A stretch of 64,000 nt of DNA from Puccinia triticina (Eukaryota > Basidiomycota > Pucciniomycetes > Pucciniales > Pucciniaceae). This document shows positions 33,780 to 36,720 of the stretch, piece after piece. The position numbers and the translations under genes were made by a program. The notes below the pieces were generated by a model, which did not search any database, was not told where the DNA came from, and saw only the letters and a list, made by a program, of their open reading frames with translations. The stretch is from contig NC_070567.1 in NCBI RefSeq assembly GCF_026914185.1, forward strand, positions 4,428,001-4,492,000, given 5' to 3'. Each line of letters starts with the position of its first letter. Position 1 is the stretch's first letter.

Positions 33780-36720
33780 CTAGAGGCCAAGGCGGCTCCG
33801 CCGCTGCAGGGATTTTAACACTAAGACCAAGCTATTCTTTTGGAGGAAAATTTGAGTTGGGGGACAGACAAAGGTGATAGGAAGGGCAATGTTTGATTAA
33901 TTTTATGCAAGTGTTGATGATTAATGCATGTTTGTCATTGATATATGGCAAGGGACATAAGGTCATAATGTAAACTCTTTTGACACCCAATCAGTTTTTG
34001 GTGGACTTGATTGGTTGGTAGCAGGATTTCATGTACAGTGGGTCATCTAATCTTTTTGGCACTGCATTTTTCATTACAGAAGCTCAGGCAACAGACCTGA
34101 ATTCATGGATTTGGCTACAGGGGTGGAAAGTAAGTTCCCAAGAATGATTATGACAGAAAAAAAATGAAAGTGAAAAATATGAAAAGTGTGAAAATTTTCC
34201 AATTTTGCGCAAATTTCTCAGAATCTTTACTATTTCTCAAACTAAGGAGAGAAAATTACAGAGAACAGTATTGCATGTGACAGGAATGATAAAGAATGAA
34301 AAAACTGAGACCCTCGACGACCAGCTCGGCCAGACATTTGGATGTATTCACCCGAGCTCAAACTCCTGAAGTCTTTCCCATCAAACTTACGGACGGTAGT
34401 GAAGACAACGGTCTTGGCGGGCATGTTTAAGCCGATCGAGAAGGTTTCCGTGGCAAATAAGACTTTAATCAGCCCTTCTTGGAACAAGATCTCGATGACC
34501 TCCTTGAGGATCGGCAGTAGACCACCGTGATGGATTCCAATCCCCCGTTTCAAAAGTGGCAAGATGTGCTTGATCTGTGGCAAGCCTTGATCGTCTTCAG
34601 ACAAGTTGGAGATCGCGTTCTTGAAAACCGTGTCGACGGTTTCCTTCTCTTCTTCGGAGTTGAATTCTAACTTGGACATCTGGATTGCTAGTGCCTCACA
34701 CTCTCTCTTCGAAAATGAGAAGACGATGACCGGATTATAGTTCTTGACCATGATCATCTTGATGATCTTGTAAATATCGGAGGGGCCTTTGGTCGAGTTA
34801 CCGCCTTTCTTAGTCTTGCCCTGCTTGTTTCGACCGGACATCGAGCTCGCAGGATCTTCGCCTCTCGAATCATTCAAGGATCCCATCGCTTTTAAGAAGT
34901 TATCCTCTCGAAATACGCCCTTCTCGTCGACGACCAAATGGATTCCGTCGCCGCCAGATGGGAATAAATAGTGCTGTAGTGGGGTTGGTCGGAAATTGGT
35001 GTAAACCACATGACAAGGTTGATCGTGGGTATGGCAAATCCATTCGGCAAACTGCATCGCGTTAGGTATTGTTGCCGATAGAAATACATATCGAACCGAG
35101 TGGGGCAATAGAATGATGGTCTCCTCCCAAACGACTCCTCTTTCTGATATGACATAAAAAACCCCGAACATAGATTAACTTTCTTGAATGCCGGTGGAGA
35201 GAAGAGTGATCTTTGGGGCATGATTTGGCCCAAGTTGAACGAGAAGAGGGATGGCTGATTACTCTTATCGCGCATATAATGAATTTCGTCAAAGATGACC
35301 CAAGCCACTTCTCTCATTACTTCTGAGCCACGATACAACATCGACCGTAAAATCTGTTTTGGATGAGTAACAGAAGGACGCAATAATCAGGATAAACCGG
35401 TGCATTTTTTCTAGCTTATTTGGTTCGTCTGAGGGTGCGCTTTGTGCTGACCTCTGTTGTCATGACTAGACATGATGCACTTGGGTTGATTGTCACGTCC
35501 CCGGTCATCAAACCCACGTCCCCAAACTCGGCCATCAATTCTCGATACTTTTGATTACTAAGAGCCTACAAAACAAGATGAATTTCAAGCAATGGGAGAA
35601 AATGATTAAGAGGGAAGAAAGATGGCGGACCTTGATAGGAGAAGTGTAGATGACTCTCTGTTTGTTTTCGAGACATTGAGCGATAGCATACTCGGCAACA
35701 ACGGTCTTCCCAGCGCTAGTATGGGCTGAGACGAGTACGCTCTCGTTACGTTGGATTGAAGTGGTCGAGACTTGTTGGAAAGGGTCGAGTGTGAAGGGAT
35801 ATGTCCTAGCTGGTTTACTTGGGGGGCGATGGGCTGAGATAGGGATGTAGTTGTAGTTGGGTGGGAGGGCTACTTGGTGACGAACTTGGTGGGAGAGGGT
35901 GAGTTGTTGGGGCTTCTCTTCTCCTGAGCCCGACTGCTCGGGCAGGAGTCCGCTACTGGCATCGATCTGTCGGGCAGCGTCTGTCTGGAATTCGTCCGCT
36001 ACTAGCACTGGCTGTTGGCTTGGGATCTTGGTGCGGTCTTCGGACTGCATCTGATCTGATGGTGAGCTGACCCGCGTCCGTTTCGGAGATGAGCTGGTCG
36101 GCTGGGTCGGAATGGTTGTTGGTTGCAGCCGTTTCTTGCTGTTAGTCTTCTCCTGGGTTGGTTCCATTGCTGCTCGTGCTCGTGCACGTGCTCGTGCTGC
36201 TGAGGAAGTGCTGCTTGTTGACCATTAGGGCTGGTCTTACCTGATGTTGAGGTAGAGTGTTGAAGATGACAACGAGGCAAAGGGCTAGCTGGGTTGTGAT
36301 GTCTTTGCAACTATCGCGATTCGCGACCTATGAAAATAAAGTTTCCGGTCAGGGCGCAATAGGGTGCAATTCAGGGGAATATGTAGGAAGACGAGGCGAG
36401 GGGGAAGGGTCCAAATATGGCCGAGTTTGATCTGGATAGGTTGCGTGCAACAAGACCATTGTAGTTGACAACAAGGCTTGGGTGGGGGCGTTTGCAACAC
36501 GTCTGACAAGAGTTGGGTGGCAACCCGGCGTCTATTTAAGAGGGGAGGGGGAGGTGTGTTTCTCCCCAGGGGATCCGGTTCCGTCCTACCCCCTCCCTGG
36601 AGCTGCCCTAATCAATTGATTAGGCCCTCCTTGAAATCCAATTTGACCGGCCCACTTTTGCTTGTTGCTGCAGCACAAGCTGGAGGGTCAATCCGAGGTG
36701 CCCCCCGGGGTATTTGGGGA
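33780..36720 (-). mobile_element. Non-autonomous Helitron carrying an MTR4 gene fragment
   Basis: Read on minus it begins TCCCCAAATACC at 36720, preceded by A at 36721. It ends with a hairpin (GCGGC-GGA-GCCGC), then CTTGGCCT and CTAG at 33783-33780, followed by T at 33779. TC start, hairpin, CTRR end and A|T target with no duplication are the Helitron signature. Host coding sequence continues in frame across the A|T junction. The cargo is the 5' half of an MTR4-like gene. No Rep-Hel is encoded, so mobilisation needed an autonomous Helitron. The same 3' end recurs at 59440-59468. Confidence 0.85.
34312..36167 (-). pseudogene. MTR4: Captured 5' part of exosome RNA helicase gene MTR4 (DOB1)
   Basis: Exons on minus: 36167-35631, 35565-35452, 35353-35263, 35143-34312, about 524 codons, uninterrupted. 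Low-complexity N-terminus, then helicase motifs: SAHTSAGKT (I), TSPIK (Ia), LMTGDVT (Ic), FDEIHYMRD (II, DEIH), FLSATIPN (III), ATETFSIGLN (V) and QMSGRAGRRG (VI). Mtr4 feeds RNA to the nuclear exosome. The gene stops at a splice donor just after motif VI. The winged-helix, arch/KOW and helical-bundle domains, about half of a normal ~1070 residue protein, are absent, and the next sequence is Helitron 3' end. Introns are kept, showing capture at the DNA level. The complete MTR4 gene must lie elsewhere. Confidence 0.88.

Follow-up and report, generated by a model that had tools for sequence, protein, structure and literature searches.

Helitrons are transposons with a rolling-circle type of transposition, insertion between A and T and a hairpin that acts as terminator, according to the accessible portions of two reports (PMC4778049; PMC5876387). 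Canonical Helitron1 elements that carry gene fragments, as far as the available excerpts of PMC5876387 and PMC5148889 describe them, have TC and CTAG ends and a 3' hairpin and insert between A and T without duplication. Gene capture by Helitrons is already known in basidiomycetes, where elements such as HELPO1 of Pleurotus ostreatus hold captured gene-like sequences (accessible part of PMC4289320). In Spodoptera, internal capture by Hel1 with end junctions of 2-13 base pairs (bp) is taken as support for a filler-DNA model in the available text of PMC6544945. Here we describe a Helitron of the wheat leaf rust fungus Puccinia triticina that carries part of the DExH helicase gene MTR4. The element lies within a stretch of 64,000 nucleotides (hereafter the window) that covers positions 4428001-4492000 of contig 10 (C10) of Pt15 haplotype A; the whole of that assembly (18 contigs, 122,823,596 bases) was the genome searched, and its other contigs are named in the same way.

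This element has the ends, the hairpin and the A/T insertion without target duplication of canonical Helitron1, the same ends delimit several copies, and the captured fragment comprises several exons together with their introns; it differs in its rust fungus host and in that a capture junction cuts a palindrome, similar to a miniature inverted-repeat transposable element (MITE), nested in the Helitron. It has in common with HELPO1 a captured gene-like sequence in a basidiomycete, but in contrast to HELPO1, as presented in the accessible part of that source, the parent gene is known here and both junctions are placed to the base. Internal acquisition between conserved ends and stepwise ages recall Spodoptera Hel1, whereas the parent gene and the Helitron overlap here by 0 bases at the 5' junction and by 1 base at the 3' junction, shorter than the range given in the excerpt available for Hel1. 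Helitron gene capture is well known, and this case is unusually completely documented; no account of this MTR4 Helitron, or of the database protein PTTG_11808 described below, was found in the open-access literature.

The explanation that we propose, and to which as a whole we assign a probability of about 0.9, is as follows. A non-autonomous Helitron of a large P. triticina family would have taken up an internal 1914-bp piece of MTR4, reaching from the start region to just past helicase motif VI, when a break within the element was repaired with MTR4 DNA as filler and not by read-through of the 3' end. The loaded element would then have spread to five copies, mobilized in trans by the Rep/helicase of other Helitrons, and the helicase fragment would be a passenger that drifts neutrally.

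The window copy begins with TCCAAGTTTATTAAATC at 36813, preceded by A, and ends with CTAG at 33780, followed by T. Searching the genome with the whole element gave five full-length copies at 99-100% identity, namely that in the window, one on C16, one on C11 and two on C1, and TCCAAG...CTAG forms the termini of all five, with the 5' TC and 3' CTRR of canonical elements. The other four copies are 3044 bp long; the window copy is shorter by a private 10-bp deletion at 36254/36253, in the Helitron leader, where the other four retain the bases and both of the MTR4-free relatives described below have, as judged by eye, a close variant. Near-identity alone would also be expected if the MTR4 piece had spread by segmental duplication or recombination instead of transposition, but the flanks refute this reading and leave it with next to no probability: over the approximately 10 kb compared at each locus, the other four copies are collinear with the window across 36814-33779 and match it no further, their 50-bp flanks differ, and the same ends stand between A and T in every one.

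The termini also recur well beyond these five copies. When 40 of 598 candidates for the corrected 588-bp 5' end were scored, 38 of 41 matches began at its first base, and its first 250-423 bp are found at further loci. A precedes the 5' end in all ten loci read, and A and T enclose the element in all seven loci at which both ends were read; both counts include the five copies and the two relatives. The exact 23-nucleotide 3' terminus occurs 53 times in the genome, followed by T in 51 cases and by A or C in two, whereas reversed control patterns gave 0 matches. Occurrence of this terminus with its T at 51 places points to a large Helitron family.

The original prediction had recognized a minus-strand Helitron with a 3' hairpin and CTAG followed by T, and this end is borne out: the hairpin GCGGC-GGA-GCCGC (33804-33792) has a 5-bp stem, lies 12 bases from the end and folds as expected. 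Of the bounds that it gave, the 3' end at 33780 with its T is correct, but the 5' end at 36720 is not, and its termini delimit other copies only with the 5' end moved. The five copies diverge on the 5' side between 36814 and 36813, and sequence upstream of 36720 is common to all of them. A start at 36720 had in its favor a TC at that position and an open frame, and it was combined with an in-frame join to the host gene (AA at 36722-36721 to T at 33779) and with retention of the promoter of MTR4. We regard this combination as refuted, since 93 bp further belong to the copies and to both relatives, host paralogs lack the corresponding 31 codons, and no MTR4 sequence precedes 36225, where the Helitron comes first. 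The wrong junction seemed to be in phase because the 93 bp amount to 31 codons, over which one reading frame out of three stays open. The possibility that the 93 bp are a 5' transduction of the C10 host exon was also discarded, as the relatives on C1 and C2 and other loci of the family carry them and the host paralogs do not.

Insertion into an exon of a gene with the same direction, which had likewise been proposed, is confirmed by paralog families on both sides of the element and by paralogs that are uninterrupted. There are 14 family matches for the upstream piece and 18 for the downstream piece, the window's own included, and the uninterrupted paralogs place the host junction at 36814/33779. 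Five paralogs were aligned there, all of them without a 31-codon insert; in two the collinearity is exact, with one codon between the two pieces that corresponds to the codon split by the insertion, and the remaining three have small length changes at the junction or are too distant for exact placing. One stop was counted in the match to the collinear paralog at C12:5927657. The host frame enters the Helitron and runs for 66 codons to a stop at 36614-36612, short of the helicase start codon at 36167, and splicing would therefore be required for a fused protein.

The captured segment (496-2409 in the element numbering used originally) is identified as the 5' half of MTR4, in agreement with the original prediction, by a parent gene and by the five copies. 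A search for the parental full-length gene located it on C13, where it runs on to the DSHCT domain; only this gene and a locus on C3 give DSHCT matches in the genome. The fragment is an MTR4-type DExH helicase fragment of four exons with GT..AG introns that ends just after motif VI (GRAGRRG), without the C-terminal DSHCT domain, and comparison of the 310-residue exon-4 frame with solved structures gave 463 bits for DOB1/MTR4, 238 for Ski2 and 74 for Brr2. The first MTR4-derived base is at 36225, where the parent has an upstream ATG. Its downstream exons do not follow at this locus, the sequence after 34312 being that of the Helitron and a nested palindrome. Relative to the parent, the C16 copy, free of private changes, shows 20 substitutions, one 11-bp deletion and one 2-bp insertion.

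How this segment was acquired is indicated by two relatives without MTR4 that have the same 5' and 3' Helitron parts, at C2:5600438-5616806 (16.4 kb) and C1:3326998-3332558 (5.6 kb). Capture by repair of a break is inferred from the internal position of the captured DNA and from the presence of both Helitron ends in these relatives. The main alternative is 3' end bypass, in which a Helitron located in front of MTR4 DNA would have run past its own 3' end and stopped at a chance new terminator. Such read-through capture has been demonstrated for Helraiser, according to the available part of PMC4778049; at this locus, however, the part that follows MTR4 is 95.5-97.8% identical to the two relatives and is not the new 3' end that read-through would leave, and the 23-nucleotide terminus with its T lies outside the five copies and C2 in 45 of its 51 occurrences. 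In addition, no other piece of the element lies beside the C13 parent among the matches listed, and the parental sequence adjoining either junction point is not that of a Helitron. We therefore consider bypass quite improbable. An origin of the two Helitron halves from different donors was dropped, as their gap-free identities are similar.

The 3' capture junction sits within a 685-bp imperfect palindrome of the relatives' 3' part, the arms of which are found at many other places in the genome. A position of the junction at the apex of this palindrome is excluded, for the spacer belongs to the palindrome too (self-complementarity 86% and 85%), and 60 bp separate the junction from the centre. 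It is conceivable, though doubtful, that the palindrome near the 3' end was a fragile spot, that a break inside it started the repair that replaced the interior, and that nested palindromes may be hot spots of capture.

The interior of both relatives holds a fragment with a weak IQGAP match (E 3e-4), and the C2 relative also has Copia-type reading frames, as judged by eye, nested inside it. Two pieces of the IQGAP-like fragment match C18:3962853-3963530 at 82% and 80%, with a RasGAP_C domain (C18:3963760-3964223) immediately downstream, and this adjoining domain supports an IQGAP-type parent at C18. The fragment is thus likely, on sequence similarity, to be an older capture by the same Helitron family from that parent; with the relatives holding an IQGAP-like piece and the present element holding MTR4, the host fragments that the family carries vary between lineages. 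Pfam comparison of seven frames of the relatives gave nothing above cut-off and two weak, chance-like matches. A further 1.1 kb of the relatives' interior has 76% matches on C7, at C18:787657 and at C10:5264349. Relatives on C9 and C4 contain transposon-like frames by eye, and no captured gene was identified in them.

The Helitron parts of the MTR4 element and of its relatives are 95.5-97.8% identical, the captured part and its parent are about 99% identical by substitutions, and the five copies are about 99.9% alike: their 15,210 bases contain 13 substitutions, all private and none shared, and three of the 13 are in the window copy. Read from these divergences, the ages are stepwise: the Helitron parts are the oldest, followed by the capture and then by the copies. 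The two haplotypes of the Pt15 isolate are 98.79% identical on average, as stated in the accessible part of PMC9927501, so that the other haplotype could be the source of the captured allele.

The features of the locus are collected in Table 1.

Table 1. Features of the MTR4-bearing Helitron and its surroundings (window coordinates).
Feature	Position	Strand	Remarks
Whole Helitron copy	33780..36813	-	TC...CTAG, 3034 bp; flanks of the five copies differ on both sides, A and T enclose each
Helitron 5' part	36226..36813	-	588 bp in window copy, 598 in other four
93-bp Helitron 5' end	36721..36813	-	Carried by the five copies and by the two MTR4-free relatives (C1, C2)
Captured MTR4 segment, 1914 bp	34312..36225	-	Parent C13:159016-160938, 98% match
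Exon 1	35631..36167	-	ATG at 36167
Exon 2	35452..35565	-	
Exon 3	35263..35353	-	Last base G>A, private to window copy
Exon 4	34242..35143	-	Helicase through GRAGRRG, then 22 residues from palindrome arm, stop
Arm of nested palindromic MITE-like element	34031..34312	-	Capture junction 34312 cuts palindrome
Helitron 3' end	33780..34030	-	Terminal hairpin 33804-33792, CTAG
T of A/T target	33779..33779	-	Matching A at 36814
Host exon part upstream of insertion	36815..37055	-	Four closest paralogs 59-71%, further 27-40%
Host exon part downstream of insertion	33482..33778	-	Four closest paralogs 49-68%, further 33-45%
Separate palindromic element	32722..33481	.	358-bp arms, 93% complementary, 44-bp spacer; interrupts host gene too

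The truncated helicase frame runs from 36167 to 34242 through four exons and three introns and encodes 547 residues, of which the final 22 come from the Helitron's palindrome arm. This frame might suggest a working gene, a dominant-negative or regulatory helicase core under selection that the Helitron has spread. The frame is open, with GT..AG splice signals, in all five copies, and it has been annotated as a gene: PTTG_11808 (isolate BBBD Race 1) equals the C16 and C1:7034452 copies exactly, with two residues different in the window copy, and PtA15_11A410 (500 residues) follows the C11 copy apart from its last residue. Fixed differences from the parent are, furthermore, skewed to synonymous ones. 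On the other side, the frame stops after motif VI without the DSHCT domain that the parent possesses, and the winged helix, arch and ratchet would be missing from the protein as well. Of the five fixed amino-acid changes, three set the fragment apart from each of the nine relatives in the comparison set, seven of which are named rusts, and the other two fall in a variable tail, where one matches the residue of P. striiformis and P. coronata. Private coding changes (3 synonymous, 4 nonsynonymous; P 0.20 against neutrality) are compatible with neutrality, and one private change is at the exon-3 splice edge of the window copy. In copies as young as these, an open frame has little meaning. We hold a working gene to be improbable, and the fragment is most likely a recent passenger.

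Several points nevertheless weigh against the proposed explanation. Capture by repair is an argument from the anatomy of the element only. Despite 150 scored matches to the Rep domain (PF14214) in the genome, no intact autonomous partner with matching termini was identified there, and the one candidate locus, on C15, has a Rep match together with the end of another Helitron inside. Of the fixed coding differences from the parent, 11 are synonymous and 5 nonsynonymous (P 1e-4 when equal rates per site are assumed, with no correction for transition bias), a skew greater than neutral drift after capture alone would give. Fixed and private changes do not differ significantly in this ratio (Fisher P 0.36), and the private changes are too few, so that neutrality is unproven. 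Divergence of MTR4 alleles before capture could be the source of the synonymous skew, and we read the changes as mostly such allelic divergence followed by drift, with constraint on the frame as another possibility.

With the parent, the MTR4-free relatives, both junctions and the five copies present in one gapless assembly, models of capture become testable base by base. The annotated wheat leaf rust 'RNA helicase' genes PTTG_11808 and PtA15_11A410 are transposon-borne MTR4 fragments, and this matters for gene counts and for the reading of MTR4 expression data.

As for the host gene, Pfam comparison of its four pieces gave nothing, and one host paralog frame, compared with a protein database, gave 169 candidates, none at E <= 0.001; an Rfam scan of the window gave nothing at gathering scores. 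The separate palindromic element at 32722-33481, downstream of the Helitron, adds another mobile-element lesion to this host gene, and because it interrupts the gene as well, the gene is probably a pseudogene. Finally, the copy at C1:7034452-7037495 is flanked by open frames of 299 and 271 amino acids on the opposite strand, each at most 900 bp away, and may also interrupt a gene or a transposon frame.
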